Shown: one piece after another, positions 15,088-32,237 of the stretch | Numbering within the stretch: position 1 is the first letter of the stretch | Layout of the letters: each line of letters starts with the position of its first letter | NCBI RefSeq assembly: GCF_021129215.1 | Contig: NZ_JAJOLP010000001.1 | Coordinates: 2,294,001-2,358,000, forward strand | DNA length: 64,000 nucleotides | Source: Agromyces sp. S2-1-8 | GTDB lineage: Bacteria > Actinomycetota > Actinomycetes > Actinomycetales > Microbacteriaceae | Reading direction: 5' to 3' | Position numbers and translations under genes: made by a program | Notes under the pieces: generated by a model | The model's database searches: none | Told to the model about the DNA's origin: nothing | What the model saw: only the letters and a program-made list of their open reading frames with translations

Positions 15088-15750
15088 ATGAGTCCGGAGC
15101 CGATCCGGCTGCTCGAGGTGCAGAGCCTTCGCGAGCAGGTCGAGCGCACCCTGTCGTCGCGCATCGTCGCGGGCGAGTTCGCGCCCGGCACGGTGCTCAC
15201 GGTACCGACCCTCGCGAACGAGTTCGGCGTGAGCGCCACGCCCGTGCGCGAGGCGATGCTGAATCTCGCACGGCGGGGATTCCTGAGTCCCATCCGCAAT
15301 CGCGGCTTCCGGGTGACCGAGGTCTCCGACGACGAGCTCCGCGAGCTCCGCGAGGTGCGGGTGCTGCTCGAGGCCCCGCCCATGCGCGCGATCGCCGGCA
15401 AGGTGCCCGCCGGCACGGTCGGCGAACTCCAGGCGCTCGCCGACGAGATCGTGAGCGCCGGGCGCGAAGGGCGCTTCGAGGACTACCTCGAGGCCGACAC
15501 CACGTTCCACCTGACGCTGCTCGAGCTCACGGGCAACCGGCACCTCGTGCGCCTCGTGCGCGAGCTGCGGCAGCAGACTCGTCTCGTCGGGCTCGTGGAC
15601 CTCGCCGAGACCGACGCGCTCGCGGCGTCGTCGCTCGAGCACGCCGAGCTCGTGCGGCTGCTCGTCGACGGCGACGGCGAGGCGGCCGAGCAGCTCATGC
15701 GCCGCCACATCGGGCATGTCGCGGGGCTCTGGAGCGGTCGCGACGAGTAG
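15088..15750 (+). CDS. GntR family regulator, FCD subfamily
   Basis: 220 residues. The N-terminal winged helix contains VPTLANEFGVSATPVREAMLNLARRGFL (about 30-57). The C-terminal FCD ligand domain keeps the metal-binding Asp/His pattern (DTTFH, EHAEL, RRHIGH). FCD regulators typically repress catabolic operons and are released by a substrate or intermediate. It lies directly upstream of the importer and hydroxyproline genes, with a palindrome in its own leader that recurs in front of livK, the permease and the divergent pair. I infer it controls this island. ATG at 15088 gives MSPEPIRL. Confidence 0.88.
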   Translation: MSPEPIRLLEVQSLREQVERTLSSRIVAGEFAPGTVLTVPTLANEFGVSATPVREAMLNLARRGFLSPIRNRGFRVTEVSDDELRELREVRVLLEAPPMRAIAGKVPAGTVGELQALADEIVSAGREGRFEDYLEADTTFHLTLLELTGNRHLVRLVRELRQQTRLVGLVDLAETDALAASSLEHAELVRLLVDGDGEAAEQLMRRHIGHVAGLWSGRDE

Positions 15751-15938: not shown

Positions 15939-17123
15939 ATGTCCCACGCTCCACGGCGCCGTACGCGCCTCCTGCAGTTCGCCGCCGCGGCGAGCCTCGT
16001 GATCGCCACCGCCGGTTGCTCCGGCGGCCTTGGTGGTGGGGGCGATGACGGCGGCTCCGACGACGGCCCGATCAAGCTCGGCATGCTGGCGCCGTTCTCG
16101 GGCAGCGAGTCGGCCTTCGGCGAGTACATGCAGAACGGCGCCCAGCTCGCCGTGGACGAGCTCAACGCCGACGGAGGCGTGCTCGGCCGCGACCTCGAGC
16201 TCGTCGTCGAAGACGACGCCTGCGACGCGACCACCGCCGTCGCCGGTGCGAACAAGCTCGTCACCGACGGCATCGCCGCCTCGGTCGGCGGCTACTGCTC
16301 GGGCGCGACGCTGCCCACGCTGCCGATCTTCGACGAGGCGGGCATCCCCATGGTCATCCCCGCGGCGAACTCGAACGAGCTCGTCGAGCAGCAGCTCCCC
16401 GGCGTCTTCCTCATCAACGGCACCGGCACCCAGCAGGCTCAGGCCGCCGTCGCCTACTCGGAGAAGATCGGCGCCTCCTCGGTCGCCGCGATCGACGACG
16501 CGACCGCATACTCCGCCGACCTCGCGGCATCCTTCGTCGAGCAGGCGACCGACGCCGGCCTCGACGTCGCGTTCGAGGCGACCATCACGCCGGGCGAGAA
16601 CGACTACTCGGCGGTCGCCACGCAGCTCGCCAACGAGCAGCCCGCCCTCGTCTACTGGACCGGCTACTACCAGGAGGGCGGCCTGATCGCCCGCCAGGCG
16701 AAGGACGCCGGCTTCGACGGCGTGTTCCTCGTCGGCGACGGCTCGGTCGACGCCAAGTTCGCCGAGATCGCGGGCGACGGCTACACCGACAACGTCGTGG
16801 GGACCTTCACCCAGACGCCCGACATGATCGAGGGTGCCGACGAGTGGATCGCCGACTACACGGAGCTCGCGGGTGCGGCCCCCGGTCCGTACTCGACGCA
16901 GTCGTACGACGCCGTCCGCGTCATCGCGCAGGCCATGGAGGACGCCGGGTCGACCGACTTCGACGAGGTCGTCGCAGGCCTCGAGGGGCTCGAGGACTTC
17001 GACACCTTCGCCGGCCCCCTGACCTTCACCGACGACCACACCCTCTCGGGCGGCGGCTTCGTGATCGTCGCGATCGACCCGGCCACCGGTGCCTTCGTGC
17101 TGAAGGACGACCTGCAGGGTTGA
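15939..17123 (+). CDS. Substrate-binding lipoprotein of Liv/HAAT-type ABC importer
   Basis: 394 residues. Arg-rich n-region, hydrophobic core and a lipobox ATAGC with lipidated Cys27, then a Gly/Asp/Ser linker. The mature part is a type I periplasmic binding fold (IKLGMLAPFSGSESAFGEYM; GGYCSGATLPTL), the Liv-type amino-acid receptor family. It is first in an operon with two permeases and two ATPases. The neighbours all handle imino acids, so hydroxyproline or proline is the likely ligand (inference). A strong GC hairpin follows the stop codon, which may raise the level of this protein over the membrane components. GAGGAGAG precedes the ATG. Confidence 0.92.
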   Translation: MSHAPRRRTRLLQFAAAASLVIATAGCSGGLGGGGDDGGSDDGPIKLGMLAPFSGSESAFGEYMQNGAQLAVDELNADGGVLGRDLELVVEDDACDATTAVAGANKLVTDGIAASVGGYCSGATLPTLPIFDEAGIPMVIPAANSNELVEQQLPGVFLINGTGTQQAQAAVAYSEKIGASSVAAIDDATAYSADLAASFVEQATDAGLDVAFEATITPGENDYSAVATQLANEQPALVYWTGYYQEGGLIARQAKDAGFDGVFLVGDGSVDAKFAEIAGDGYTDNVVGTFTQTPDMIEGADEWIADYTELAGAAPGPYSTQSYDAVRVIAQAMEDAGSTDFDEVVAGLEGLEDFDTFAGPLTFTDDHTLSGGGFVIVAIDPATGAFVLKDDLQG

Positions 17124-17128
17124 GCCGC

Positions 17129-17156
17129 CGGGGCGGGGGCGCGAGCCCCCGCCCCG
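17129..17156. terminator. GC hairpin between livK and livH (attenuator or mRNA stabiliser)
   Basis: Perfect 12-bp inverted repeat CGGGGCGGGGGC / GCCCCCGCCCCG with a four-base GCGA loop (GNRA type), 6 bases after the livK stop. There is no T-run, so it may act as partial terminator or 3' stabiliser of the binding-protein message. Confidence 0.65.
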
Positions 17157-17200
17157 CCTCGAACCCCCAGGCCCCCGGCGGAAAGGACACCGCTGTCGTG

Positions 17201-18088
17201 ATGCAACTCATCTGGAACGGGCTCATCGTCGGCTCGTTCTACGCACTCGTCGCGCTCGGCTACAGCATGGTCTACGGGATCATCAAGCTGCTGAACTTCG
17301 CGCACGGCGACATCTACATGCTCGGCGCCTTCGTCGGGTTCTTCACCCTCTCGGCGTTCGGCATCTCGAACGAGACCTCGATCCCGCTGCTGCTCGTCAT
17401 CATGCTGCTCTCGATGGTGACGACGGGCCTCATCGGCGTCGGCATCGAGCGGATCGCCTACCGGCCGCTCCGCAACAGCCCGCGGCTCGCCGTGCTCATC
17501 ACCGCGATCGGCGTGTCGTTCACGCTCGAGTACGGCGTGCGCCAGCTGTTCGGGCCCAACCCCGAGGCGTTCCCGATCCGGCTCGCCTCGACCGGGTTCG
17601 ACGTGCTCGGCATGCGCATCACGGCCTCGCAGCTCGTGCTCGTCGTCATCGCGGCCGTGCTCATGCTCGTGCTCGCGCACATCGTCGAGCGCACGAGCCA
17701 GGGCCGAGCGATGCGTGCGATCGCCCTCGACCCCCAGGGCGCCCAGCTCATGGGGGTCAACGTCAACCGGGTCATCGCGACCGTCTTCTTCATCGGCTCC
17801 GCCCTCGCGGGCGCGGCCGGCGTCATGGCGGGTGCGTACTACGGCTCGATCGACTTCCTGATGGGCTTCATCATCGGGCTCAAGGCGTTCACCGCCGCGG
17901 TCATCGGCGGCATCGGCAACCTCTACGGCGCCATGCTCGGCGGGCTGCTGCTCGGCCTCCTCGAATCGTTCGGCGCGGCGTGGTTCGGCGGCGAGTGGCG
18001 CGACGTGTTCTCGTTCGCGTTCCTCATCCTGTTCCTCACCTTCAAACCCACCGGGCTCCTCGGCGCCCGCGTCGTCGAGAGGATGTGA
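17201..18088 (+). CDS. livH: Liv-type ABC importer permease, LivH family
   Basis: 295-residue polytopic inner-membrane protein with about eight hydrophobic segments. The LivH hallmark GYSMVYGIIKLLNFAHGD lies near residues 20-40. With LivM it forms the channel of a branched-chain/hydrophobic amino-acid type importer. The start is ATG at 17201; a GTG at 17198 is equally in frame and slightly closer to the GGAAAGGA ribosome site. The stop is one base before the livM ATG. Substrate is inferred from neighbours to be an imino acid. Confidence 0.93.
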   Translation: MQLIWNGLIVGSFYALVALGYSMVYGIIKLLNFAHGDIYMLGAFVGFFTLSAFGISNETSIPLLLVIMLLSMVTTGLIGVGIERIAYRPLRNSPRLAVLITAIGVSFTLEYGVRQLFGPNPEAFPIRLASTGFDVLGMRITASQLVLVVIAAVLMLVLAHIVERTSQGRAMRAIALDPQGAQLMGVNVNRVIATVFFIGSALAGAAGVMAGAYYGSIDFLMGFIIGLKAFTAAVIGGIGNLYGAMLGGLLLGLLESFGAAWFGGEWRDVFSFAFLILFLTFKPTGLLGARVVERM

Positions 18089-18089
18089 C

Positions 18090-19289
18090 ATGGCCGGCCG
18101 ACTCGACCAGGCGCTCAAGCACGCGCCGCTGCGCGCGCCGTCGCCGCTCTTCGATCGTCCGCGCGCCCCGCGCGGCGTGTTCACCTCGCAGACCGGCTTC
18201 CTCCGGGCGCTCGGCGGCCTCGCCGTCGTGCTGCTCCTCGTGCTCCCGTTCATGGACGCGTCGCGGTACACGATGTCGATCGCGACGAGCGCCCTCATCT
18301 ACGTCATGCTCTGCATGGGCCTCAACGTGGTCGTGGGCTTCGCGGGACTGCTCGACCTCGGGTACATCGCCTTCTTCGCCGTGGGCGCCTACGTCTCGGG
18401 CATCTTCACGACGGTGCTCGGCTTCCCGATGTGGCTCTCGCTCATCGCCACGATCTGCGCGTGCATCATCGCGGGAATCATCATCGGCGCCCCCACGCTG
18501 CGCCTGCGCAGCGACTACCTCGCGATCGTGACGCTCGGCTTCGGCGAGATCATCCGGATCACGGCGAACAACCTCGACATCACGGGCGGCCCGAGCGGCA
18601 TCCACGGCATCCCGTCGTGGGAGTTCGGCGGCTGGAGCTTCGACGACGGCTTCTCGATCGGCGGCATCGAGTTCCCCGGCTACGTGGTGTTCTACTACTT
18701 CGTCGCGCTCGTCGTCGTGGTCGTCGGCGTGATCGGGGCGGGCCGCCTCGGCAAGGGCAAGATGGGCCGCGCCTGGAAGGCCGTGCGCGACGACGAGGAC
18801 GCCGCCGAGGCGATGGGCATCAACACCTACATCGCGAAGATCTCGGCGTACATCATCGGCGCCGTGTGGGCCGGCATGGCCGGACAGCTCATGGCGACGC
18901 ACCTGTCGGCGATCAGCCCGAACAGCTTCCAGTTCCTGTACTCGGCCCTCATCCTCATGGCGGTCGTGCTCGGCGGAATGGGCTCGACGCCCGGCGTCAT
19001 CATCGGCGCGCTGTTCGTCTCGCTCGCCCCCGAGCTCCTGCGCGACTTCGCCGAGTGGCGGTTCCTGATCTTCGGCGTGCTGCTCGTCGTCGTGATGCTG
19101 TTCCGACCGGCCGGGCTCTGGCCGGCGACCGCGGTGCTGCCGTGGCTGAAGCGGCAGAAGCCGCAGCCGCCGCCCTTCACCTCCGCCGTGTCGGCGGTCG
19201 ACCACGGCGAGCCGACCGTGCCGCCGAGCGTGATGGAGTCGGTCGACGGCCTGCCGGCGACCGACGCCGAGGAGGGGAGGCAGCCGTGA
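18090..19289 (+). CDS. livM: Liv-type ABC importer permease, LivM family
   Basis: 399 residues with an N-terminal cytoplasmic stretch of about 45 residues, then about ten membrane segments. The family blocks [24 protein letters not shown] and [21 protein letters not shown] are clear. The last 45 residues are a hydrophilic tail. It starts one base after the livH stop, and its own stop overlaps the livG start (GTGA), so it is translated within a tightly coupled operon. Confidence 0.93.
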
Positions 19290-20164
19290 GCGCGCTCCTG
19301 GAGGTCCGCGACCTGCGACTGCAGTTCGGCGGCGTGAAGGCCGTCGACGGCCTCAGCTTCGAGGTCCGGACCGGTGAGATCCTCGCGGTGATCGGCCCGA
19401 ACGGCGCCGGCAAGACGAGCGCGTTCAACTGCATCTCCGCGTTCTACCTGCCGACGTCGGGCTCGGTCGAGTTCGACGGCAATCGCATCGTTCGCGAGGT
19501 GCCAGGGTTCTGGCGGCGGCTCGGCCTCACCCATCTGCTCCAGAGCTTCGGCTTCTACCGGGTGCTCCCGTCGAGGGTCACGAAGTGGGGCATGGCCCGC
19601 ACGTTCCAGAACCTGCGGCTCTTCCGGGAGCTCAGCGTGCTCGACAACGTGAAGACGGCGATGCACGCGAACCTGCGCGAGGGGTTCTGGTCGACGCTGC
19701 TGCACACGCCCGGATACCGCAGGGCGGAGGAGGCGTGCGCCCGCGAGGCGCGCGGCTGGCTCGACTTCGTCGGCTTCGCCGAGGACGAGAACCTCTACGT
19801 GACGCAGCTGCCCTACGGCGAGCAGCGTCGGGTCGAGATCGCCCGCGCGCTCGCGACGAGCCCGAAGCTGCTGCTGCTCGACGAGCCCGCCGCGGGCCTC
19901 AACTTCAACGAGAAGCAGTCGCTCATGGAGCTGATCCGCAAGATCCGAGACATGGGGGTGGCGGTCGTCCTGATCGAGCACGACATGGGCCTCGTCATGG
20001 AGCTCGCCGAGCGCATCGTCGTGCTGAACTACGGCAAGGAGATCGCCGACGGCACGCCCGAGGAGATCAAGAACGACCCGGTCGTCATCGAGGCCTACCT
20101 CGGCGTCGACGAGGATGAGGGCGGCGCCACGAGCACCGCCCGTGCGGACGGAGGCCGATCGTGA
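19286..20164 (+). CDS. livG: Liv-type ABC importer ATPase, LivG family
   Basis: 292 residues. Walker [10 protein letters not shown] near residue 36, Q-loop region FQNLRLF, signature [15 protein letters not shown] (the usual LSYGxQR variant of LivG), and Walker [13 protein letters not shown]. An insertion of about 25 residues ([20 protein letters not shown] region) separates Walker A from the Q-loop, somewhat longer than in E. coli LivG. Start GTG at 19286 overlaps the livM stop; its own stop overlaps the livF start in the same GTGA way. Confidence 0.94.
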
Positions 20165-20871
20165 GCGTGCTCGAGGTGAACGAGGCCGACGTCTACTACG
20201 GCCGGGTGCATGCCCTGCGAGGGCTGAGCTTCGCGGTCGAGGAGGGCGAGATCGTGTGCCTGCTCGGCAACAACGGCGCGGGCAAGTCGACGACGATGAA
20301 CATGCTCTCCGGCCTCGTACGGCCGAAGTCGGGAGAGGTGCGCTGGAACGGCCTCGACCTGACGACCGCGAAGCCGTGGAACATCGTCTCGGCGGGGCTC
20401 CTCCACGTGCCTGAGGGGCGGCGCATCTTCTCGACGATGACCGTGCACGAGAACCTGCTGCTCGGCGGCTACACCGTGCGCGACAAACGGGCGATCCAGA
20501 CCAGGCTCGACGAGGTGTACGGCCTCATGCCGCGCCTCGCCGAGCGGCGCAGGCAGCAGGGCGGAACGCTCTCGGGCGGCGAGCAGCAGATGGTCGCGAT
20601 CGGCCGGGCGCTCATCGGCGGGCCGAAGCTGCTGCTGCTCGACGAGCCCTCCATGGGGCTCGCACCGCTCATCGTGAAGCAGGTGATGGAGATCATCCAG
20701 CAGGTGAACGCCCAGGGCACGACCGTGCTGCTCGTCGAGCAGAACGCCCGTGCGGCCCTCAAGATCGCGCATCGCGCGTACGTCGTCGAGACCGGTGCGG
20801 TGACCCTGTCGGGTCCCGCCGCCGAGCTCGCCGCCGATCCGCGCGTGGTCGAGGCGTACCTCGGCGCGTGA
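20161..20871 (+). CDS. livF: Liv-type ABC importer ATPase, LivF family
   Basis: 236 residues. Walker A GNNGAGKST near residue 37, signature LSGGEQQMVAIGRAL, Walker B LLLLDEPSMGL, and the switch His region VLLVEQNARAAL typical of LivF. It pairs with LivG to power import. Start GTG at 20161 overlaps the livG stop. The dehydrogenase genes begin 40 bases later with their own ribosome site, so the importer and the first catabolic enzyme are probably on one transcript. Confidence 0.94.
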   Translation: MSVLEVNEADVYYGRVHALRGLSFAVEEGEIVCLLGNNGAGKSTTMNMLSGLVRPKSGEVRWNGLDLTTAKPWNIVSAGLLHVPEGRRIFSTMTVHENLLLGGYTVRDKRAIQTRLDEVYGLMPRLAERRRQQGGTLSGGEQQMVAIGRALIGGPKLLLLDEPSMGLAPLIVKQVMEIIQQVNAQGTTVLLVEQNARAALKIAHRAYVVETGAVTLSGPAAELAADPRVVEAYLGA

Positions 20872-20911: not shown

Positions 20912-22072
20912 GTGCGCGTCATCGTGATCGGCGCCGGGGCGATCGGCGCGGCCAGTGCACTCGCGCTCGCCGAGGCGGGTGCCGAGGTGGTCGTCGTCGA
21001 TCGGGCCGGCGTCGCGGGGGAGACCTCGAGCCGGTGCGAGGGCAACATCCTCGTCTCCGACAAGGGCCCGGGCGCCGAGGCCGAGCTCGCGATCGTCGCG
21101 AATCGCGCCTGGCGTGCACTCGCCGAGCGGCTCGACGCCGACCGCGGGCCGGGACAGCCGGCGACCGAGTTCGAGGCGAAGGGCGGCGTCGTCGTCGCAT
21201 TCCCAGGCGGCGAGGCAGCGCTCGGCGCGTTCGCCGCGTCCCAGCGCGGCATCGGCATCACGGCGAACGAGGTGGATGCCTCGGCGCTGCGCGCGCTCGA
21301 GCCCCACCTGTCGCCGGAGGTCGTGCGAGGCATCCACTACCCCGACGACGCGCAGGTGCAGCCGAGCCTCGCGACCCAGGCGATGCTCGCCCGGGCCGTG
21401 CGCCTCGGGGCGACCGTCCGCGTGACGGAGGCGACCGGAGCCCGGGTGCGCGCGGGCCGGGCCATCGGCGTCGAGACGCCGGAAGGCCCGATCGAGGGCG
21501 ACGCCGTCGTGAACTGCGCGGGGCCGTGGGCGGGCGAGGTCGCGGCACGCTTCGGCGCCCGGCTCGACATCCGGCCGCGCCGCGGCCTCATCCTCGTGAC
21601 GGTGCCGATGCCGCAGCGCGTCTTCCACAAGGTCTACGACGCCGACTACGTCGGCGCGGTCGGCTCCGCGGATGCTGCCCTGCAGACCTCGACCGTCGTC
21701 GAGTCGACCCCGGCGGGCACCGTGCTGATCGGCTCGAGCCGCGAACGCGTCGGGTTCTCGGAGTCGAACACGCTGCCGGCGCTCGCCGAGATCGCGGCGA
21801 AGGCGGCTCGGCTGTTCCCGTTCCTCGCCGACACGATGCTGCTGCGCAGCTACCACGGCTTCCGCCCGTACGCCCCCGACCACCTGCCGGCGATCGGCGC
21901 CGACGGCGAGGTCGCCGGGCTCTTCCACGCGGCCGGCCACGAGGGCGCGGGCATCGGGCTCGCGCCGACGACCGGCGACCTCGTCGCGCACGCCGTCCTC
22001 GGCGTGCCCGCGCCGATCGACCCGGCGCCGTTCCTGCCCACGAGGGCCGCACTGCGGGAGGAGGCCGCATGA
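20912..22072 (+). CDS. FAD-dependent oxidoreductase, probable D-hydroxyproline dehydrogenase FAD subunit
   Basis: 386-residue DAO-fold flavoprotein with the dinucleotide motif VIVIGAGAIGAASALALAEAG at residues 3-23. It resembles HcnC and the beta-type subunits of heteromeric proline/hydroxyproline dehydrogenases. Together with the small [2Fe-2S] protein and the NAD/FAD-fold protein downstream it forms the three-part architecture known for heteromeric D-hydroxyproline dehydrogenases, which oxidise cis-4-hydroxy-D-proline to pyrroline-4-hydroxy-2-carboxylate. Start GTG at 20912 follows GGAAAGGGG; the stop overlaps the next gene (ATGA). Neighbouring epimerase and deaminase support the substrate. 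Confidence 0.85.
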   Translation: MRVIVIGAGAIGAASALALAEAGAEVVVVDRAGVAGETSSRCEGNILVSDKGPGAEAELAIVANRAWRALAERLDADRGPGQPATEFEAKGGVVVAFPGGEAALGAFAASQRGIGITANEVDASALRALEPHLSPEVVRGIHYPDDAQVQPSLATQAMLARAVRLGATVRVTEATGARVRAGRAIGVETPEGPIEGDAVVNCAGPWAGEVAARFGARLDIRPRRGLILVTVPMPQRVFHKVYDADYVGAVGSADAALQTSTVVESTPAGTVLIGSSRERVGFSESNTLPALAEIAAKAARLFPFLADTMLLRSYHGFRPYAPDHLPAIGADGEVAGLFHAAGHEGAGIGLAPTTGDLVAHAVLGVPAPIDPAPFLPTRAALREEAA

Positions 22073-22311
22073 CCATCCGCATCAGCTTCGACGGCGACGA
22101 GGTCCTCGGGCGCGAGGGCCAGACGATCGCCGGGGTGCTGCTCGCCTCCGGGCGCCGGAGCTGGCGCACCGCCGACGGGGAGGAGCGCGGCGTGTTCTGC
22201 GGCATCGGCGTCTGCCAGGACTGCGTCGTGACCGTGAACGGGGTCGGGAGCGTGCGCGCCTGCCAGCGCACGGCGTGCGACGGCGATGCGATCGAGCGGG
22301 AGGTGCGATGA
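22069..22311 (+). CDS. Small (2Fe-2S) subunit of the imino-acid dehydrogenase (HcnA-like)
   Basis: 80-residue ferredoxin-like protein. Cys44, Cys49, Cys52 and Cys65 form the C-x4-C-x2-C-xn-C pattern (CGIGVCQDC then RACQ) of plant-type [2Fe-2S] clusters. It matches the small HcnA-like subunit that links the two flavoprotein subunits in heteromeric hydroxyproline dehydrogenases. Start and stop both overlap the neighbouring genes by 4 bases (ATGA at each end), so stoichiometric translation is expected. Confidence 0.88.
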   Translation: MTIRISFDGDEVLGREGQTIAGVLLASGRRSWRTADGEERGVFCGIGVCQDCVVTVNGVGSVRACQRTACDGDAIEREVR

Positions 22312-23687
22312 AGCGACGGGTCGTCATCCTCGGGGCGGGGCCGGCCGGCCTCGCCGCCGCGCAGGCCGCGCTCGCCCACGGGGCCGACGTCGTCGTGATC
22401 GACGAGGGCGAGCGGGTCGGCGGGCAGTTCTGGCGCCACCACGACACGCTCACCGATCGTCGCCTCCAGCATCAGTGGGCGAGGTTCGAGCGGTTGCGCG
22501 GCGCGCTCGAGCGGGCGACGGTGCACGCCTCGACGAGCGTCTGGCGCGTCGACACCGAGCACGGGGTGCGCGTGCACGCGCTGCACGGCCCGGTGGACGC
22601 CGTCGATCGCGAACCGCTCGTGATCGACGCCGATGCCCTCGTGATCGCGACGGGCGCGCACGACCGTGCCCTCCCGGTTCCGGGCTGGACCCTGCCTGGC
22701 GTCACGACCGCCGGTGCCGCCCAGGCGCTGGCCAAACGCGACGGGGTCGCGCTCGGCGGGCGCACGGTGGTCGCAGGTGCTGGCCCGTTCCTGCTGCCGG
22801 TCGCGGCGAGCCTCGCGCAGGTCGGCGGCGAGGTCGTCGAGGTCGTCGAGGCGGCCGGCGCCCGTGCGATCGCACGCGGTTGGGGTCGGGCCCCGTGGCA
22901 GTTCGCCGGGGTCGCGGGCAAGGCGGGGGAACTGGGGGAGTACGCGCTCTCGCTCGCACGCCACCGCACGCCCTACCGGATCGGGCAGGCCGTGACCCGG
23001 ATCCACGGCGAGCGCGCCGTCGAGGGAGTCACGATCCAGCGCGTCGACGCCCGTTGGCGCCCGATCGCCGGCACGGAACGCCACGTCGAGTGCGACGCGG
23101 TCGCGCTCGGGCACGGGTTCACGCCGCGGATCGAGGCCGCGATCCAGGCCGGCTGCGCGATCTCGCCCGACCGGTTCGTCGTGGTCGACGCACGTCAGGG
23201 CACGAGCGTCGCGGGGGTCTTCGCGGCCGGCGAGGTCACCGGCATCGGGGGCGCCGACGCCGCACTCGCCGAAGGTGCCGTCGCGGGCTTCGCCGCCGCC
23301 GGGGGAGACCCGGCCGACGCGAGGATGCGAGGGCCGCTCGCGGCGCGCCGGCGCATGCACGCGTTCGCCGCGCGCCTCGCGACGCACGACATCGCACCGG
23401 GGTGGACCGCCTGGCTCGACGACGAGACGATCATGTGCCGGTGCGAGTCGGTCACCGTCGCCCGCTTGACCGCGGCGGCCGGGGCGGCGGGCTCGAGCCG
23501 AGGCATCCGCCTCGCCACGCGCGCAGGACTCGGCGCCTGCCAGGGGCGGACCTGCGGACGCAGCGTGGAGGCCCTGCTCGGCCGGCCGCTCGGCCTCGAC
23601 CGGCGACCGGTCCTCTCGTCGGTGCGGATCGGCGAGCTCGCCGCCTGCGCCGATGAAGCACCCGCCGCGTCGGCCGACGCCGGCTGA
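22308..23687 (+). CDS. NAD/FAD-fold subunit with BFD-like (2Fe-2S) domain (HcnB-like)
   Basis: 459 residues. FAD motif VVILGAGPAGLAAAQ at residues 5-19, a second dinucleotide fold around residue 150 (VVAGAGPFLLPVAASLAQVGG), and a C-terminal BFD-like cluster-binding domain (IMCRCESVT ... AGLGACQGRTCG). This is the alpha subunit of HcnABC-type dehydrogenases and passes electrons from the DAO-type subunit onward. It starts within the stop of the small ferredoxin gene. It is the last gene of the probable importer-dehydrogenase operon; the permease promoter with operator C follows. Confidence 0.87.
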   Translation: MKRRVVILGAGPAGLAAAQAALAHGADVVVIDEGERVGGQFWRHHDTLTDRRLQHQWARFERLRGALERATVHASTSVWRVDTEHGVRVHALHGPVDAVDREPLVIDADALVIATGAHDRALPVPGWTLPGVTTAGAAQALAKRDGVALGGRTVVAGAGPFLLPVAASLAQVGGEVVEVVEAAGARAIARGWGRAPWQFAGVAGKAGELGEYALSLARHRTPYRIGQAVTRIHGERAVEGVTIQRVDARWRPIAGTERHVECDAVALGHGFTPRIEAAIQAGCAISPDRFVVVDARQGTSVAGVFAAGEVTGIGGADAALAEGAVAGFAAAGGDPADARMRGPLAARRRMHAFAARLATHDIAPGWTAWLDDETIMCRCESVTVARLTAAAGAAGSSRGIRLATRAGLGACQGRTCGRSVEALLGRPLGLDRRPVLSSVRIGELAACADEAPAASADAG

Positions 23688-23732: not shown

Positions 23733-23744
23733 GTGATATATTAC
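23733..23744. promoter_or_regulatory. Predicted GntR operator C (upstream of the permease)
   Basis: GTGATATATTAC, a perfect match to GTGATRTATYAC, 30 bases before the permease ATG. TATATT inside it could be the -10 box, so binding would repress the permease-deaminase-epimerase-dehydrogenase operon. Confidence 0.65.
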
Positions 23745-23774
23745 ATAGCACGTATCGCGACAAGGGAGCCGCCA

Positions 23775-25091
23775 ATGACCGCCACCGCAACCGGAGAACG
23801 CATCGCCCCGCCCGGCGACGACGAGGCGCGCCGCGTCCGCAAGGTCATGCGCTCCTCGGCAATCGGGCATTTCGTCGAGTGGTTCGACTTCGCGGTCTAC
23901 GCGTACGCGGCTCCGGTGATCGCGTCGCTCTTCTTCCCCGACTCCGACCCGGCTGCGGCCCTCATGGCCGTCTTCGCGATCTACGCGGTCGGCTTCGTCG
24001 CCCGCCCGATCGGCGCGTTCCTGCTCGGCCACCTCGGCGACCGGTTCGGCCGCAAGCGCGTGCTCGCCGGCGTCATCCTCGTCATGGGCGTCTCCACGAC
24101 GCTCATCGGCCTGCTGCCGACCTACGCCGTCATCGGGGTCGCCGCGCCCGTGCTGCTCATCCTGCTGCGCATGGTGCAGGGCCTCTCCGCCGCAGGCGAG
24201 ACGATCGGCTCGAACTCGTTCGTCGCCGAGCACTCGCCGACCGCGCGCCGCGGGCTCAACGTCGGCCTCGTGTACACGTGGTCGAACCTGCCGCCCGTCA
24301 TCGCCGCCCTGCTGGTGCTCGCGCTCACGACCGTGCTCTCGCCCGAGGCGTACGAGACCTGGGGCTGGCGCGTGCCGTTCCTGCTCGGCGCGCCCCTCGC
24401 CGTCGTCGGCCTTTACATCCGCTCCCGCGTCGACGAGTCGCCCGCCTTCCTCGAGATGCGCGAGAGCCGCCAGGTCGAGTCGGCGCCGATCCGCACGGTG
24501 TTCCGCGAGCAGTGGCGCAACATGGTCGTCTGCTTCAGCATCGCCGCCGTCGCGAGCCTCGGCTACTACTCGCTCACCGGCTACTTCTACTCGTACATGA
24601 CCGTGACCATCGGCCTCGACTCGTCGGCCGCGCTCATCTCGAACAGCATCGCCCTGCTCATCACCTTCTTCACCGTGCCAGTCGCGGCGTACTGCTCCGA
24701 CCGCATCGGCCGACGCCGAATGCTGCTGATCGCCGGCCTCTTCGGCGCGCTCGTCGCCGTGCCCGCGTACCTGCTCGTCGGCGTCGGCACGCTCGGCGCC
24801 GCGGTCGTGAGCCAGGGCCTGCTCGGTCTCGCGCTCGGGCTCTTCTTCGGCCCGGCGGGTGCGGCCTTCGTCGAGCTCTTCCCCGCGCGGGTGCGGTACA
24901 CGGGAGCCTCGATCAGCTACAACCTCGCGTTCACGATCTTCGGCGGCACCGCACCGCTCATCGCCACGTGGCTCATCGGGCTCACCGGCTCGACCGTGGC
25001 GCCGGCCTGGTACGTCGTCGCGGTCACGGTGCTCGCGCTCCTCGTCGTGCTCACGATGCCCGAGACGAACCGGCGTTCGATGCGCGACTGA
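23775..25091 (+). CDS. MFS permease, metabolite:H+ symporter (MHS) family
   Basis: 438 residues, twelve predicted membrane segments. The MHS hallmarks are GHFVEWFDFAVYAYAAPVIA in the first helix and GHLGDRFGRKRVL in the loop between helices 2 and 3. Relatives such as ProP move proline, betaine or organic acids with protons. Start ATG at 23775 with AAGGGAG upstream is preferred over GTG at 23733, which lies inside operator C. It heads an operon with the deaminase, epimerase and aldehyde dehydrogenase, so it is a likely second, lower-affinity hydroxyproline uptake route beside the ABC importer. Confidence 0.9.
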   Translation: MTATATGERIAPPGDDEARRVRKVMRSSAIGHFVEWFDFAVYAYAAPVIASLFFPDSDPAAALMAVFAIYAVGFVARPIGAFLLGHLGDRFGRKRVLAGVILVMGVSTTLIGLLPTYAVIGVAAPVLLILLRMVQGLSAAGETIGSNSFVAEHSPTARRGLNVGLVYTWSNLPPVIAALLVLALTTVLSPEAYETWGWRVPFLLGAPLAVVGLYIRSRVDESPAFLEMRESRQVESAPIRTVFREQWRNMVVCFSIAAVASLGYYSLTGYFYSYMTVTIGLDSSAALISNSIALLITFFTVPVAAYCSDRIGRRRMLLIAGLFGALVAVPAYLLVGVGTLGAAVVSQGLLGLALGLFFGPAGAAFVELFPARVRYTGASISYNLAFTIFGGTAPLIATWLIGLTGSTVAPAWYVVAVTVLALLVVLTMPETNRRSMRD

Positions 25092-25169: not shown

Positions 25170-26102
25170 ATGACCACGAACAACATGGACCTGGGCGGCG
25201 TCGTCGTCGCCACCACGCTCGCCTTCAAGGAGGACGCGCAGGCGCCCGCCGGGCTGGCCGTCGACTACGACAGGTTCGCCGAGCACGTCGACTTCCTCAT
25301 GGCGAACGGCTGCCGCGGCGTCGGGCCCAACGGCTCGCTCGGCGAGTACTCGTCGCTCACCGACGAGGAGCGCCGCAAGGTCATCCAGGTCGCCGTCGAG
25401 GCGGTCGACGGGCGCGGCATCGTGATCGCCGGCGTGCACGGCGTCGGCAGCCACCAGGCGCGCCTCTGGGCCGAGTACGCGAAGGAGGACGGCGCCGACG
25501 GCGTGCTGCTGCTGCCGCCCACGATCTACCGGGCCAACGAGGGCGAGGTCATCGCGCACTACCAGGAGGTCGCGAAGGTCGGCCTGCCGATCATGGCCTA
25601 CAACAACCCCTTCGACACCAAGGTCGACCTCGTGCCGTCGCTCGTCGCGAAGCTCGCCGAGATCCCCGAGGTCGTCGCCATCAAGGAGTTCTCGGGCGAC
25701 GTGCGCCGCGTCTACGAGATCAAGGAGCAGTGCGACATCGACGTCATCGCCGGTGCCGACGACGTGCTCTTCGAACTCATGGTGAACGGTGCCGTCGGCT
25801 GGTTCGCCGGCTACCCGAACGCCTTCCCGCGCGAGGCCGTCGAGCTCTACAACCTCTGCGCCGAGGGCAAGTGGCACGAGGCGAAGGCGCTCTACGAGCA
25901 GCTCGTCGCCGTGTTCCGCTGGGACTCGCGCACCGAGTTCGTGCAGGCCATCAAGCTGTCGATGGACATCTGCGGCAACTCGTACGGCGGCCCGACCCGC
26001 CCGCCGCGCGGCCCGCTGTCGGCCGAGCAGCGCGCCCAGGTCACCGCCGACACCGAGCGGGCGCTCGCGGCGCTCGCGGCGCGGCGGGCGGCGGTCGCCT
26101 GA
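25170..26102 (+). CDS. DapA-family lyase, probable pyrroline-4-hydroxy-2-carboxylate deaminase
   Basis: 310-residue class I aldolase fold of the DapA/NAL superfamily. Schiff-base Lys172 in VVAIKEFSGD and Tyr144 in MAYNNP are present; the GPNGSLGEYSSL loop replaces the usual GTTGE. In hydroxyproline pathways this family deaminates and dehydrates pyrroline-4-hydroxy-2-carboxylate to 2-oxoglutarate semialdehyde. The neighbouring epimerase and aldehyde dehydrogenase make that assignment much more likely than lysine biosynthesis. Its stop overlaps the next start by one base (TGATG). Confidence 0.85.
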   Translation: MTTNNMDLGGVVVATTLAFKEDAQAPAGLAVDYDRFAEHVDFLMANGCRGVGPNGSLGEYSSLTDEERRKVIQVAVEAVDGRGIVIAGVHGVGSHQARLWAEYAKEDGADGVLLLPPTIYRANEGEVIAHYQEVAKVGLPIMAYNNPFDTKVDLVPSLVAKLAEIPEVVAIKEFSGDVRRVYEIKEQCDIDVIAGADDVLFELMVNGAVGWFAGYPNAFPREAVELYNLCAEGKWHEAKALYEQLVAVFRWDSRTEFVQAIKLSMDICGNSYGGPTRPPRGPLSAEQRAQVTADTERALAALAARRAAVA

Positions 26103-27103
26103 TGCGTGCGCGCCGGGTCCTCTCCGCCGTCGACTCCCACACCGAGGGCATGCCGACCCGTGTCGTCACGGGCGGCGTCGGCCGGATCCCCGGCGCGACC
26201 ATGAACGATCGCCGGCTCTACGCGATGGAGCACCTCGACGGGCTGCGGGGCCTGCTCATGAACGAGCCCCGCGGCCACGCGTCGATGTCGGGCGCGCTGC
26301 TGCAGCCGCCTGCGCGCGACGACGCCGACTGGGGGGTCGTCTTCATCGAGGCGAGCGGGTTCCTGCCCATGTGCGGGCACGGCACGATCGGCGTCGCGAC
26401 CGTGCTCGTCGAGACCGGCATGGTCGAGGTGACGGAGCCGGTCACCGAGGTCCGTCTCGACGTGCCCGCGGGACTCGTGATCGCGCGCGTCGCGGTCGAG
26501 GGCGGCCGCGCGAAGCACGTCACGATCGAGAACGTCCCGAGCTTCGTCGACCGGCTGGATGCCTCGATCGAGGTGCCCGGCTACGGCGAGGTGCCCTACT
26601 CGGTCGCCTTCGGCGGCAACTTCTACGCCCTCGTCGATCTCGACGCGGTCGGGCTGCCGTTCGATCGCGCCAGGCAGGGCGACATCCTGCGCGCCGGCCT
26701 CGCGATCATGGATGCGATCAACACGCAGGCGCCGCCGCAGCATCCCGTGATCGCTGGGGCGAACCACGTGCACCACGTCGAGTTCATCGCGCCCGGCTCA
26801 GACGCCGTGCGCTCGCGACACGCGATGGCGATCCACCCGGGGTGGTTCGACCGGTCGCCGTGCGGCACCGGCACGAGCGCGCGCATGGCCGAGCTCTTCG
26901 CCCGCGGCGAGCTCGCGCTCGACACCGATTTCGTCAACGAGTCGTTCATCGGCACCGAGTTCACGGGGCGCCTGATCCGCGAGACCGAGGTGGGCGGCGT
27001 CCCGGCCGTGGTGCCGACGATCACGGGCCGGGCGTGGGTCACCGGCCTCGGACAGTACTTCCTCGACGACGACGACCCCTTCCCCGAGGGCTTCGTCTTC
27101 TGA
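26102..27103 (+). CDS. Proline racemase family, probable 4-hydroxyproline 2-epimerase
   Basis: 333 residues. Both catalytic cysteines of the racemase fold are present: Cys91 in MCGHGTIG and Cys254 in DRSPCGTGT. The Cys/Cys pair marks a racemase or epimerase rather than the Cys/Thr dehydratases. In this context it would interconvert trans-4-hydroxy-L-proline and cis-4-hydroxy-D-proline, the substrate of the upstream dehydrogenase. It is translationally coupled to the deaminase gene and followed after 28 bases by the aldehyde dehydrogenase. Proline racemase activity is the main alternative. Confidence 0.87.
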   Translation: MRARRVLSAVDSHTEGMPTRVVTGGVGRIPGATMNDRRLYAMEHLDGLRGLLMNEPRGHASMSGALLQPPARDDADWGVVFIEASGFLPMCGHGTIGVATVLVETGMVEVTEPVTEVRLDVPAGLVIARVAVEGGRAKHVTIENVPSFVDRLDASIEVPGYGEVPYSVAFGGNFYALVDLDAVGLPFDRARQGDILRAGLAIMDAINTQAPPQHPVIAGANHVHHVEFIAPGSDAVRSRHAMAIHPGWFDRSPCGTGTSARMAELFARGELALDTDFVNESFIGTEFTGRLIRETEVGGVPAVVPTITGRAWVTGLGQYFLDDDDPFPEGFVF

Positions 27104-27131: not shown

Positions 27132-28631
27132 ATGACCACCGCTTCCGACGTCGACACCGACGCCGTCGCCGCCCGCGCGGCCCGCGCCGCCCGCCCCTTC
27201 GCCGAGACCGACCCGCGCGCCAGGGCCGCGGCGCTCGTCGCGGTCGCCGACGCGCTCGATGCGGCCGGCCCCGAGCTCATCGCCATCGCGATGCGCGAGA
27301 CCGGCCTGACCGAGGCCCGGCTCACCGGCGAGGTGCGTCGCACCACGAACCAGCTGCGACTCTTCGCCGAGGTGATCGTCGACGGCGGCTACCTCGACGC
27401 CCGCATCGACGACGCCGATCCCGCCTACGTCATCGGCCCGCGCCCCGACGTGCGGCGCGTGCTCGAGCCGGTCGGCCCCGTGCTGAACTTCGCCGCATCG
27501 AACTTCCCGTTCGCCTTCTCGGTGGCCGGCGGCGACTCGGCCGCAGCCCTCGCGGCCGGCTGCCCGCTCATCGTGAAGGCGCACTCGGGTCACCCCGAGC
27601 TCTCCCGCCGCACGGGCGAGATCGTCGCCGAGGCACTCGCGACCGCCGGCATGCCCGACGGCGTCTTCCAGGTCGTGGCGGGGCAGCAGGCCGGCGTCGA
27701 GCTCCTGAAGGACGACCGCATCCGCGCCGGTGCCTTCACCGGGTCCACGCACGTCGGGCGCCTCCTCGCCGACATCGCGGCGTCGCGCCCGCGTCCGATC
27801 CCGTTCTACGGCGAGCTCGGCAGCGTGAACCCGGTCTATGCGACGGCGGGCGCCGTCGCGGGCGACCCCGAGTTGCTGCAGGGCTTCCTCACGTCGGTCT
27901 CGGGCTCGGCGGGCCAGCTCTGCACGAAGCCCGGATTCCTCTTCGTGCCGCGCGAGGCCGAGCTCGGTGCGGTCGGCGACACCGCCGCCTCGGTGTCCGA
28001 GCATCGGCTGCTGAACCCCGGCATCGGCCGGGCGTTCGAGGAGCGCCGGAGTGCCGTCCTCGGCGCGCCCGGTGTCGCCGTGCTCGCCGAGGGCGCCGTC
28101 CGCGTCGACGACGCCGAGCAGCGCTTCGCGACGCCGACGGTGGTCGAGGTCGACCTCGACACCCTGCGCGCGCACCGCGACGAGCTGCTCGAGGAGTCGT
28201 TCGGCCCGCTCTCGATCATCGTGCGCTACGACGACGCCGGCGAGCTGCCCGACGTGCAGCGCGAGCTGTTCCCGGGCAACCTCACCTCGACGCTGCACGC
28301 GAGCGACGCCGAGCTCTCCGGCGGCGGGCTCGCCGACCTCGTCGACGCCCTCGCCGAGACGAGCGGCCGGGTGCTCTTCGGCGGATGGCCGACGGGGGTG
28401 TCGGTGACGAGCGCGATGCAGCACGGCGGCCCGTACCCGGCGACGACGAGCGACGCGACGAGCGTCGGGACCGCGGCGATCACGCGGTTCCTCCGCGGCG
28501 TCGCCTACCAGAACGCGCCGCAGGCGCTGCTGCCGGCACCGCTCCGCGACGAAAACCCGTGGGGCGTGCCGCAGCGCCGCAGCGCGGCGGGCCGGTCCGC
28601 CGAGTGGGGAAGCCTCACGGGCTCGCACTGA
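27132..28631 (+). CDS. Aldehyde dehydrogenase, probable 2-oxoglutarate semialdehyde dehydrogenase
   Basis: 499-residue ALDH. Asn124 in NFAASNFPF, catalytic Glu228 in FYGELGS and nucleophile Cys264 in GQLCTKPG are all in place. The PFAFSVAGGD and GQLCTKPG wording is typical of the 2,5-dioxovalerate (2-oxoglutarate semialdehyde) branch. It would finish hydroxyproline breakdown by making 2-oxoglutarate for the TCA cycle. GGAGG precedes the ATG. It is the last gene of the rightward operon and converges with the second racemase gene across a long hairpin. Confidence 0.88.
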   Translation: MTTASDVDTDAVAARAARAARPFAETDPRARAAALVAVADALDAAGPELIAIAMRETGLTEARLTGEVRRTTNQLRLFAEVIVDGGYLDARIDDADPAYVIGPRPDVRRVLEPVGPVLNFAASNFPFAFSVAGGDSAAALAAGCPLIVKAHSGHPELSRRTGEIVAEALATAGMPDGVFQVVAGQQAGVELLKDDRIRAGAFTGSTHVGRLLADIAASRPRPIPFYGELGSVNPVYATAGAVAGDPELLQGFLTSVSGSAGQLCTKPGFLFVPREAELGAVGDTAASVSEHRLLNPGIGRAFEERRSAVLGAPGVAVLAEGAVRVDDAEQRFATPTVVEVDLDTLRAHRDELLEESFGPLSIIVRYDDAGELPDVQRELFPGNLTSTLHASDAELSGGGLADLVDALAETSGRVLFGGWPTGVSVTSAMQHGGPYPATTSDATSVGTAAITRFLRGVAYQNAPQALLPAPLRDENPWGVPQRRSAAGRSAEWGSLTGSH

Positions 28632-28747: not shown

Positions 28748-29731
28748 TCAGCGCAGGCTGAAGCCGTCGGCGAGCGGGTCGGCGGGGTCGAGCTCGAACT
28801 CGCAGCGGCCGACCCGGTACGCCTGCCCGGTGACCTCGGGGACGACCCCGCCCTCGGTGCGAGCGGCCACCCGCGCGAGGAACCGCGTGCCGATGATCGA
28901 GTCGTGCGTGAGCGTCTCGCCGTCGGCGAGCGCACCCGTCTCCGCGAGGAATGCGACCCGCGAGGCGGTGCCCGAACCGCACGGGCTGCGGTCGACCTCG
29001 CCGTCGGCGAAGACCGTGACGTTGCGCTGCCACGGGCCTTCGTCGGTGCGGCCCAGGTCGTCGACGAGGATCGTGCCGTAGACGCCCGAGAGCCGGTCGT
29101 CGTCGAGCTGCGCGGCCGGGTGGTCGTTCAGGGCCCACTTGATCTCGCGGCCGAGGCGGATGAGCTCGGTCGTGTGCGCGGGCGCGACCTCGAGGCCGAG
29201 CGATGCGGCCGGCAGCGTCGCGTAGACGGCGCCGCCGAAGACGAGGTCGACCTCGACGTCGCCGCGGCTCGTCGTGAGCGGGATGCCTCGTGCGAGCACG
29301 CGGGAGGCGACGTTGCGGAACACGACCCCGGTGGTGACGCCCGCGGAGCGGTGCACGCGCGCCTGCACCCGCCCGCTCGGCACGTCGATGGTGACGATCG
29401 CCTCGCCGTCGTCGGGCGCGGAGACCCGCCCCGTCGCGACGGCCCACGCGCCGAGCGCCATCGTGCCGTGCCCGCATGCGGTCGAGAACCCGTCCTTGTG
29501 CCAGAACAGCACGCCGAAGTCGGCGCCGTCATCGTCGGGCGGCGTGACGAACCCGCCGTACATGTCGTCGTGGCCGCGCGGCTCGAGGCAGAGGAACCGG
29601 CGCACCCGGTCGGGTTCGCCGGCCATGGCGTGCACGCGTCGTTCGGCGACCGTCGCGCCCTCGGTCGCGACGCCCTCGACGATGCGGAACGGCTCGCCCG
29701 CCGTGTGCCAGTCCTCGGTGGTCCACCGCAT
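28748..29731 (-). CDS. Second proline racemase family protein
   Basis: 327 residues, the same fold as the gene at 26102 but divergent in sequence (begins MRWTTEDWHTAGEPFRI). Cys86 in TACGHGT and Cys251 in DRSPCGSGT are both present. Known trans-3-hydroxy-L-proline dehydratases of this fold carry Thr in place of the second Cys, so the residues point to an epimerase, whereas the coupling to an ornithine-cyclodeaminase-family gene points to the 3-hydroxyproline/pyrroline-2-carboxylate route. Its ATG overlaps the upstream stop (TGATG). The exact reaction is unresolved. Confidence 0.85.
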   Translation of the reverse strand: MRWTTEDWHTAGEPFRIVEGVATEGATVAERRVHAMAGEPDRVRRFLCLEPRGHDDMYGGFVTPPDDDGADFGVLFWHKDGFSTACGHGTMALGAWAVATGRVSAPDDGEAIVTIDVPSGRVQARVHRSAGVTTGVVFRNVASRVLARGIPLTTSRGDVEVDLVFGGAVYATLPAASLGLEVAPAHTTELIRLGREIKWALNDHPAAQLDDDRLSGVYGTILVDDLGRTDEGPWQRNVTVFADGEVDRSPCGSGTASRVAFLAETGALADGETLTHDSIIGTRFLARVAARTEGGVVPEVTGQAYRVGRCEFELDPADPLADGFSLR

Positions 29732-30672
29732 CACGCGCCTCCGTCTCCGTCGAGCGCGGCCTGTGCGACCGCAAGGTCCTGCCATCCCATGCCGCACGTC
29801 TTGACGACGCGGGGCCGGTCGTGCGCGACCTCCACGACGCCGGTCGCGATGCGTGCCATCGGCACGATATCGGCGGGGGAGAGGTGCCCCTCGTCGAACG
29901 CCATGATGACGTCGCCCGCCTCGGTGCGGGCGACCCGGTCGGTCTCGACGATCACCTGCGCCCGACCGAGCAGCTCGCCGGGCAGCTCGCGCACGCCTCG
30001 CTCGTGCGAGCCGACGGCGACGAGTGCGGCGCGGTCGCGCACGAGGTCGGCGTCGAAGAGCGGCTCGCGTGCGGTCGTCGCGCAGACGACGAGGTCGGCC
30101 TCGGCCACGTCGCCGGCGTCGCCGACGGCGATGTCGAGCCCGGATGCCGCGCACTCGGCCACCGCGCGCAGCGCCTTCGCCCGATCGCGGCCGATGAAGC
30201 GCACGCGTTCGATCGGCCGGATCGCGCGCATCGCCTCGACGTGGCGGATGCCCTGCGGACCGGTGCCGAACACCACGAGGCTCGTCGCGTCGGGCTCGGC
30301 GACGAGGTCGAGCATCGCCGCCGACATCGCGGGCGTGCGCAGGCTCGTGAGCTCGGTGCCGTCGAGGAGCGCGACGGGGGTGAGGCTCTCGGCGTCGAGC
30401 ACGACGTAGACCGCCTGGATGCGCTCGAGCCCTCGGGCGGGATTCGAGGGAGCGACGGTCGCGAGCTTCTGGCCCGCGTAGCGGCCGAGGTCGGCAGGCA
30501 TGAGCAGGAGCTGCCCGTGCCGCACGTCGACGATCGATCGGGGCGGGTCGTCGTCGGGATCGAACCCGGCGCGAAGCGCGGCCTGCAGGGCTCGGACGGC
30601 GCGGGGCATGTCGATGCGCGCGCGGAGCGCGGCGGCATCGAGGATCCGCATGGCGGCGATGACATCGGACAT
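29731..30672 (-). CDS. Ornithine cyclodeaminase/mu-crystallin family, probable pyrroline-2-carboxylate reductase
   Basis: 313 residues. Rossmann motif VVFGTGPQGIRHVEAM near residue 140 and substrate-region motifs HGQLLLMPADLG and GQKLATVAPSNP are family-typical. In hydroxyproline clusters this family (LhpI-like) reduces delta1-pyrroline-2-carboxylate to L-proline. It is the first gene of a leftward two-gene operon with the second racemase. ATG at 30672 lies 6 bases after a TAGGCT box, so the mRNA is probably leaderless. Lysine/ornithine cyclodeaminase is less likely given the neighbours. Confidence 0.83.
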   Translation of the reverse strand: MSDVIAAMRILDAAALRARIDMPRAVRALQAALRAGFDPDDDPPRSIVDVRHGQLLLMPADLGRYAGQKLATVAPSNPARGLERIQAVYVVLDAESLTPVALLDGTELTSLRTPAMSAAMLDLVAEPDATSLVVFGTGPQGIRHVEAMRAIRPIERVRFIGRDRAKALRAVAECAASGLDIAVGDAGDVAEADLVVCATTAREPLFDADLVRDRAALVAVGSHERGVRELPGELLGRAQVIVETDRVARTEAGDVIMAFDEGHLSPADIVPMARIATGVVEVAHDRPRVVKTCGMGWQDLAVAQAALDGDGGA

Positions 30673-30746: not shown

Positions 30747-32237
30747 ATGCACGCCGACGAAGGCGCCGCCACGATCAACCCCGTCGATCGCACGGAGGCC
30801 GGCGCGGCGCCCGGGCCCGCGCGCTCGATGCCGCAGGCGCCCGAGCCCGATCCGCGGATGCCGCGCCTTGCCGGGTCGCCCGGATTCCGCGAGTTCATGC
30901 AGCGCGGCTGGGCCGACGCCGACCGCACGCCCGTCATCCCCTCCGGCGCGCCCGCCGCCGCAGCACGGCACCGCGAGCGGCTCTCGGCGGCCGCCGGGGG
31001 ACTGGTGATCGCGATCGCGGCCGGCCGGGCGCCGATGCGCGTCAACGACAACGCGCACGAGTTCCGCGCCGACAGCGACTTCCTCTGGCTCGTCGGTGCG
31101 GGGGTGGAGGACGCCGTGCTCGTGCTCGAACCGGCGGGCGGCGGCCACGATGCGACGCTCTACCTGCCGTCGCCCTTCCGCCCGGGCGACGAGGGCTTCT
31201 TCGCCGACCCGCTGCGGGGTGAGCTGTGGGTCGGCCCGATCGCCGGCCTCGCCGAGTACGCCGACGTGCTCGGCGTGCGCACGCGGCGCATCGAGGAGCT
31301 CGACCTGCCGAGCGGCGCCCTCCTCGCCGGCACGCCTCCGACGACGGGTCCGGGTGCCGCGATCGCCGCTCACCCGCGGTCGGGCGAGCTCGCGCGCGTA
31401 CTGGCCGAACTCCGCATGGTGAAGGACGACTGGGAGCTCGCCGAGCTGCGCGCCGCGGTCGACACCACGGTCGACGGCTTCGCGGCCACCGCGTTCGAGA
31501 TCCCGGCCGCGGTGCGCCGCGGTGGCGAGCGATGGCTGCAGGGCACGTTCGACCGGTACGCGCGCACCTTCGGTGCGGGCACGGGGTACGCCTCGATCGT
31601 CGGATCCGGCGCCCACGCGCCCGTCCTGCACTGGGTGCGCGCCGAGGGCGACGTCGACCCCGAGGCGCTGCTGCTGCTCGACCTCGGCGTCGAGCGCCGG
31701 TCGGGCTACACGGCCGACGTCACCCGCACGCTGCCCGCGTCGGGCTCGTTCTCGACCGCCCAGCGCGAGGTGCACGACCTCGTCGAGGCCTCCCACCGCG
31801 CGGGGCTCGCAGCCGTCGGGCCGGGTCGTGACTGGGCCGACTTCCACACGGCGTGCATGGAGGTGCTCGCCCGGGGGCTCGCCGACTGGGGCCTCCTGCC
31901 GGTCTCGGTGGACGAGGCGCTCTCGCCAGAGGGGCAGCAGCATCGCCGATACATCGTGTGCGGCGTCGGCCACCACCTCGGCATCGACGTGCACGACTGC
32001 TCGGCCGCGAGCCACGCGGCGTACCAGGGCGCGAAGATGCGGCCGGGCATGGCGCTCACCGTCGAACCCGGGCTCTACTTCCACGCCTTCGACGAGACGG
32101 TCCCGCCCGAGCTCCGCGGGCTCGGCGTGCGGCTCGAGGACGACGTCGTCGTGACCGCCGACGGCGGCGAGGTGCTCTCGCGCGGGCTCCCGATCGACGC
32201 CGCGGGCATCGAGGCGTGGATGGCCGGGCTCCGCTGA
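30747..32237 (+). CDS. Xaa-Pro aminopeptidase (M24B)
   Basis: 496-residue PepP-type metallopeptidase. N-terminal creatinase-like domain (HEFRADSDFLWLVG) and C-terminal pita-bread domain with the five metal ligands: Asp in LLLDLGVE, Asp in YTADVTRT, His in GVGHHLG, Glu in TVEPGLYF and Glu in RLEDDVVV. It removes residues that precede proline or hydroxyproline, which would free imino acids from peptides. The divergent promoter with operator D suggests co-control with the catabolic genes. AAGGAG precedes the ATG. No signal peptide, so it acts on imported peptides. Confidence 0.93.
   Translation: MHADEGAATINPVDRTEAGAAPGPARSMPQAPEPDPRMPRLAGSPGFREFMQRGWADADRTPVIPSGAPAAAARHRERLSAAAGGLVIAIAAGRAPMRVNDNAHEFRADSDFLWLVGAGVEDAVLVLEPAGGGHDATLYLPSPFRPGDEGFFADPLRGELWVGPIAGLAEYADVLGVRTRRIEELDLPSGALLAGTPPTTGPGAAIAAHPRSGELARVLAELRMVKDDWELAELRAAVDTTVDGFAATAFEIPAAVRRGGERWLQGTFDRYARTFGAGTGYASIVGSGAHAPVLHWVRAEGDVDPEALLLLDLGVERRSGYTADVTRTLPASGSFSTAQREVHDLVEASHRAGLAAVGPGRDWADFHTACMEVLARGLADWGLLPVSVDEALSPEGQQHRRYIVCGVGHHLGIDVHDCSAASHAAYQGAKMRPGMALTVEPGLYFHAFDETVPPELRGLGVRLEDDVVVTADGGEVLSRGLPIDAAGIEAWMAGLR

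Follow-up and report, generated by a model that had tools for sequence, protein, structure and literature searches.

A pair of overlapping genes in the soil actinobacterium Agromyces sp. S2-1-8 probably provides a pathway from the rare amino acid trans-3-hydroxy-L-proline (T3LHyp) to L-proline. Judging from sequence comparisons, PRS2, a proline-racemase-superfamily protein with cysteine at both catalytic positions, would be the dehydratase, and the gene upstream of it would encode the reductase. The pair lies in a 64,000-nucleotide stretch of a 4.1-Mb chromosome (the window), beside a complete set of trans-4-hydroxyproline pathway genes on the plus strand. We view this as an ordinary pathway with an uncharacterized active-site variant. 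The features of the window are as follows.

Ends at 15750: GntR-type regulator, preceding the ABC transporter genes (from translations)
15939..20871, plus strand: branched-chain-type ABC transporter genes (read from translations)
20912..22072, plus strand: DAO-family FAD oxidoreductase, predicted subunit of cis-4-hydroxy-D-proline dehydrogenase
22069..22311, plus strand: small 2Fe-2S protein (Fer2_4), predicted dehydrogenase subunit
22308..23687, plus strand: FAD/NAD(P) oxidoreductase with a BFD-like 2Fe-2S domain, predicted dehydrogenase subunit
23733..25091, plus strand: MFS metabolite/H+ symporter (ProP-like)
25170..26102, plus strand: DHDPS-family deaminase
26102..27103, plus strand: PRS1, Cys/Cys proline-racemase-superfamily protein, predicted 4-hydroxyproline 2-epimerase
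27132..28631, plus strand: aldehyde dehydrogenase, predicted alpha-ketoglutarate semialdehyde dehydrogenase
28748..29731, minus strand: PRS2, proline-racemase-superfamily protein of 327 amino acids with Cys86 and Cys251
29729..29733, minus strand: TGATG in which the reductase gene stops and PRS2 starts; translation is likely coupled
29731..30672, minus strand: OCD/mu-crystallin family (OCD) protein of 313 amino acids, predicted Delta1-pyrroline-2-carboxylate reductase, the upstream gene of the pair
30747..32237, plus strand: Xaa-Pro aminopeptidase-like M24 peptidase, divergent from the reductase

The preliminary description of this DNA reported a racemase-fold gene with Cys86 and Cys251 coupled to a reductase-like gene, and the coordinates, the overlap, and the protein families all agree with it. 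Because a single TGATG holds both the stop of the reductase gene and the start of PRS2, the two genes are almost certainly on one transcript, and their translation is likely coupled. PRS2 is a clear member of PF05544 (Pro_racemase; 250 bits, with a curated cutoff of 27), and its catalytic positions 86 and 251 lie within FSTACGHGTMALG and DRSPCGSGTASR. The reductase is a clear member of PF02423 (OCD/mu-crystallin; 138 bits). Its best NCBIfam match is a Delta1-pyrroline-2-carboxylate reductase model (NF004793; 178.8 of 322 bits, which is below the cutoff). Among its relatives of solved structure are alanine dehydrogenase (107 bits) and 6t3e (92 bits). PRS1 and PRS2 were the only superfamily members found in the genome; PRS1 is the divergent second Cys/Cys homolog that had been noticed 1.6 kb away (1.64 kb from PRS2, and 36% identical to it).

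The position of PRS2 in the family supports a dehydratase. We left out the column of residue 251 and built a careful maximum-likelihood tree from 63 proteins of the superfamily, in which PRS2 falls inside a clade of 46 rows (support of 100/100) with the human and Thermococcus litoralis T3LHyp dehydratases (7qpo and 6r76) and the LhpH proteins. The proline racemases, TlProR, and all of the 4-hydroxyproline epimerases are outside of this clade. The preliminary description had proposed a family tree of both homologs, and the tree separates them, with PRS1 among the epimerases. A quicker tree of 86 rows agrees. Within the dehydratase clade, most members of an actinobacterial group (100/99) are Cys/Cys; three separate lineages are Cys/Thr instead, and one member is Cys/Ser. 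The nearest lineage outside the Actinobacteria is a Cys/Cys protein from Bacillus badius (99/93), and the next gene there encodes an OCD protein. Over the whole tree, position 251 changed at least five times.

The preliminary description expected that dehydratases of this type have Thr at position 251. The human, Thermococcus, and LhpH types agree with this, but it does not hold throughout: a Ser/Thr dehydratase has been described (PMC4113996), and position 251 switches repeatedly within the clade. We therefore do not take Thr251 as defining the family.

Residues outside the catalytic pair also place PRS2 with the dehydratases. Four positions split the Thr-containing dehydratases from the epimerases and racemases: position 58 (Tyr versus Ser, Phe, or Val), position 83 (Ser versus Leu), position 92 (Ala versus mostly Gly), and position 168 (Ala versus Asn or Ser, with Asn being usual). 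At each of these, PRS2 has the residue of the dehydratases (Tyr58, Ser83, Ala92, and Ala168). All 32 of the actinobacterial rows have Tyr58, Ser83, and Ala168, no matter which of Cys, Thr, and Ser is at position 251. None of the 17 epimerases or racemases has any of these three residues; among 13 Thr dehydratases, they are found in 13, 12, and 13, respectively. Ala92 is present in 31 of 32 actinobacterial rows (the other has Thr), in 13 of 13 Thr dehydratases, and in 3 of 17 epimerases or racemases. Position 58 aligns with "site 1" of the family's ligand-binding residues, which is Phe in ProR, and the F62S and F62V mutants of TlProR were made to mimic HypE (PMC4364671). Ala (once Val) at position 85, just before Cys86, is the one residue that distinguishes the actinobacterial group from the other groups in the comparison; the epimerases have Met there, and the other dehydratases have Met or His.

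Among solved sequences, PRS2 is closest to the T. litoralis T3LHyp dehydratase (237 bits), and its best NCBIfam model is also for T3LHyp dehydratase, but PRS2 reaches neither dehydratase cutoff (271 of 540 bits and 123 of 550 bits). Cys/Thr proteins from the same clade (L172, L231, and L234) miss these cutoffs as well, so the cutoffs are narrow. PRS2 is also below the cutoffs of NCBIfam models for 4-hydroxyproline 2-epimerase (191 of 376, 149 of 450, and 104 of 442 bits) and of the proline racemase model NF010576 (199 of 556 bits). Across 296 genomes, no actinobacterial member exceeded the cutoff of NF045511. We did not assign PRS2 to any NCBIfam equivalog, as it reached no cutoff. The AlphaFold2 model of PRS2 (mean pLDDT of 92.8) has only superfamily members as its best structural matches, and the comparison of folds did not discriminate between dehydratases and racemases, as 6r76 (Z = 43.7) and the proline racemase of Trypanosoma cruzi (Z = 43.2) were tied.

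Next to PRS2 genes, a reductase gene is common. Among 394 genomes of the class, we considered 20 previously uncounted PRS2 genes (at least 48% identical). An OCD gene was within 1.5 kb of 14 of these 20; for other superfamily genes, the figure was 2 of 40 (Fisher P = 2e-7, which is indicative only, as the 40 were a chosen subset from genomes without PRS2 and the genomes are related). In the order, PRS2 was found in 28 of 297 sampled genomes (about 9%), with an OCD gene within 1.5 kb in 9 of the 28 and within 15 kb in 14. Across at least 80 named PRS2 loci, an OCD gene was within 1.5 kb at 44 of 80 among the matches listed, and 43 of these were on the same strand. Of these OCD loci, 14 with at least 9 kb on both flanks were without 4-hydroxyproline genes, among the matches listed. 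The pair was also found twice with a cis-3-hydroxyproline-dehydratase-like gene, and it is repeatedly associated with hydroxyproline genes and prolyl peptidases. Because the same pair recurs across Actinobacteria, the pairing is not due to chance.

In the wider clade, OCD genes adjoin Cys/Cys members (L183, L185, L187, L191, and L197) and Cys/Thr members (L170 and L194) alike. The partner is not fully diagnostic, because in some genomes an OCD gene is beside a 4-hydroxyproline-epimerase-type gene instead of PRS2 (Citricoccus, L236:5974-7931; Arthrobacter, L237:10925-12935; G719, G907, and G894). We therefore rejected the OCD neighbor as a strict marker of dehydratases. Also, we did not find an OCD gene near many of the PRS2 genes from Streptomyces and Kribbella; at five of these loci (L093, L094, L096, L100, and L101), no reductase or hydroxyproline genes were recognized within 10 kb.

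A few other loci are of note. Zhihengliuella salsuginis has a natural Cys/Thr version within the Cys/Cys group (L127:10001-10996; about 61% identical), with no reductase gene nearby. Genome G271 carries a Cys/Ser copy and a Cys/Cys copy of PRS2 that are 20 kb apart (at L045:8483-9457 and L046:9615-10613), with 4-hydroxyproline genes and an OCD gene in the vicinity. In Glaciibacter superstes, a second, diverged paralog (L087:11964-12960; 48% identical to PRS2) directly follows the reductase gene and has the motifs SCGHGTMALG and DRSPCGSATGAR. Superfamily genes that lost the catalytic Cys are found in tandem with an epimerase-type gene in Priestia (L182:4017-4973) and Paenibacillus (L235:6006-7004, with SVSGHG and DRSPGGAG at the lost Cys). 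Azospirillum brasilense has a Cys/Gly protein (L181:2965-3978) near leuC-like and isocitrate-lyase-family genes.

If PRS2 is a T3LHyp dehydratase, then the pair would follow the established pathway of dehydration, tautomerization, and reduction with NAD(P)H to L-proline (PMC4113996, PMC9309405). PRS2 would convert T3LHyp to Delta2-pyrroline-2-carboxylate, which would become Delta1-pyrroline-2-carboxylate; the cotranscribed OCD-type enzyme would reduce this to L-proline, which could be used by the proline dehydrogenase that is present in the genome. We infer that Cys86 is the base that takes the alpha-proton from the L-substrate; for a family epimerase, the first of the two catalytic residues is described as working on the L-epimer, in the trans-to-cis direction (PMC4113996). 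Because the alpha-proton and the 3-hydroxyl of T3LHyp are on the same face of the ring, elimination should not require an acid on the opposite face, and Cys86 should suffice. Residue 251 would be on the opposite face and would be needed only for epimerization. As it would be dispensable for elimination, it could be Thr, Ser, or Cys and could drift while the rest of the site remains fixed.

Since Cys251 could reprotonate the other face, some epimerization to cis-3-hydroxy-D-proline could occur, like that reported for PA1255, and a side epimerase activity for PRS2 is plausible. A stronger version of this idea is that PRS2 is bifunctional in vivo: besides dehydrating T3LHyp, it would epimerize 3- or 4-hydroxyproline by means of D-face reprotonation by Cys251, with the D-products going to the neighboring FAD dehydrogenase and the dehydration product going to the reductase. 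This would be a subcase of the T3LHyp dehydratase explanation and does not exclude it. Both cysteines are present in 52 of the 58 rows of the clade, PA1255 (PaLhpL) is reported to be bifunctional toward T3LHyp (PMC5144071), TlProR (Cys/Cys) epimerizes T3LHyp (PMC4364671), and the window holds both pathways. On the other hand, a dedicated 4-hydroxyproline epimerase is just 1.6 kb away, the 14 loci described above have PRS2 and the reductase without 4-hydroxyproline genes, and versions exist that have Thr or Ser at position 251 and share the other residues. We consider bifunctionality in vivo to be a tentative suggestion. Similarly, the actinobacterial Cys/Cys clade might consist of true bifunctional dehydratase/epimerases whose reaction is set by Tyr58, Ser83, Ala85, and Ala168 instead of by one residue, but we would bet against it.

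It is unlikely that PRS2 acts as a proline racemase or as another 4-hydroxyproline epimerase besides PRS1, with the reductase only salvaging pyrroline-2-carboxylate from the oxidation of D-proline. In the original work on the human enzyme, epimerase activity was reportedly regained by putting the Cys back, which speaks for this reading. Cys/Cys is the classical pair of racemases and epimerases (PMC4364671), the genes are within a 4-hydroxyproline cluster, and the difference between Cys and Thr is said to decide the reaction of the human enzyme (PMC8142540, a review); by this rule, Cys251 would make PRS2 an epimerase. However, PRS2 is on the wrong side of the tree: although it has the two catalytic cysteines of 4-hydroxyproline 2-epimerases, it groups outside of the epimerase families. 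Its site 1 is Tyr58, not the Phe of ProR or the Ser or Val of HypE, and it has Ala168 instead of the usual Asn. Also, it would be redundant with PRS1, and PRS2 and the reductase occur together without 4-hydroxyproline genes. Of the two readings in the preliminary description, a Cys/Cys dehydratase is the better supported, by the tree, by the residues other than Cys251, and by the gene context; the other ("something else," such as recycling D-proline) fared worse. Finally, it is very improbable that the substrate of the pair is a different cyclic imino acid or a different beta-hydroxylated cyclic amino acid, such as 3-hydroxypipecolate via piperideine-2-carboxylate. The model that the reductase matches best is for a bifunctional enzyme of both pyrroline- and piperideine-2-carboxylate, and the pocket may differ with Ala instead of Met before Cys86, but the recurrent company of hydroxyproline genes, of prolyl peptidases, and of a cis-3-hydroxyproline-dehydratase-like gene argues against this.

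The T3LHyp pathway was already known, as was the arrangement of a 4-hydroxyproline epimerase adjoining a T3LHyp dehydratase (PMC4113996). PRS1 is the epimerase expected in the adjoining trans-4-hydroxyproline cluster and is not a puzzle. What is new, as far as the literature we searched shows, is a large actinobacterial Cys/Cys clade with Ala85. If PRS2-type enzymes are dehydratases, then annotations based on residue 251 are wrong for these 28 of 297 genomes and for the at least 80 named loci. The human enzyme gave rise to the idea that a single residue, Cys or Thr, determines whether the protein is an epimerase or a dehydratase. The clade offers a natural test of this, and the Thr version from Zhihengliuella and the Ser and Cys copies in G271 are ready-made comparisons.

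Among known systems, the 4-hydroxyproline 2-epimerases and proline racemases share the fold and the Cys/Cys pair with PRS2, but they differ at positions 58, 83, 92, and 168 and form separate branches. PA1255, which is a T3LHyp dehydratase/2-epimerase (PMC5144071), is a precedent for the two activities within a single protein of the superfamily. The LhpH/LhpI type of Paraburkholderia and Agrobacterium (these gene names differ between authors and databases) is in the same clade as PRS2 and has the same partner in Paraburkholderia, but it is Cys/Thr with His before the first Cys. We take the database entry for BC0905, the Bacillus cereus protein that was assayed, to be Cys/Cys, but we gave this no weight. 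The t3HypD family of Bacilli (cluster 5, "navy," in PMC4113996) resembles PRS2 in having an OCD partner, and its representative from B. badius is Cys/Cys with the OCD gene next, but this family has Met at position 85 instead of Ala. The published qPCR primers for BC0905 (PMC4113996) translate to FADGQV and LSVTAV, which flank the residue without covering it; they match the B. badius protein at 9 of 13 positions, which is no better than for a few other rows. The sequence from B. badius suggests that the relatives in Bacilli, which belong to a group that was assayed in 2014, could already have the Cys/Cys pair, and if the assayed dehydratases themselves are Cys/Cys, then the novelty would shrink. 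The T. litoralis T3LHyp dehydratase is in the same clade as PRS2, with the same kind of partner and the same Tyr58/Ser83/Ala168 type, and differs in having Thr251 and Met85, where PRS2 has Cys251 and Ala85.
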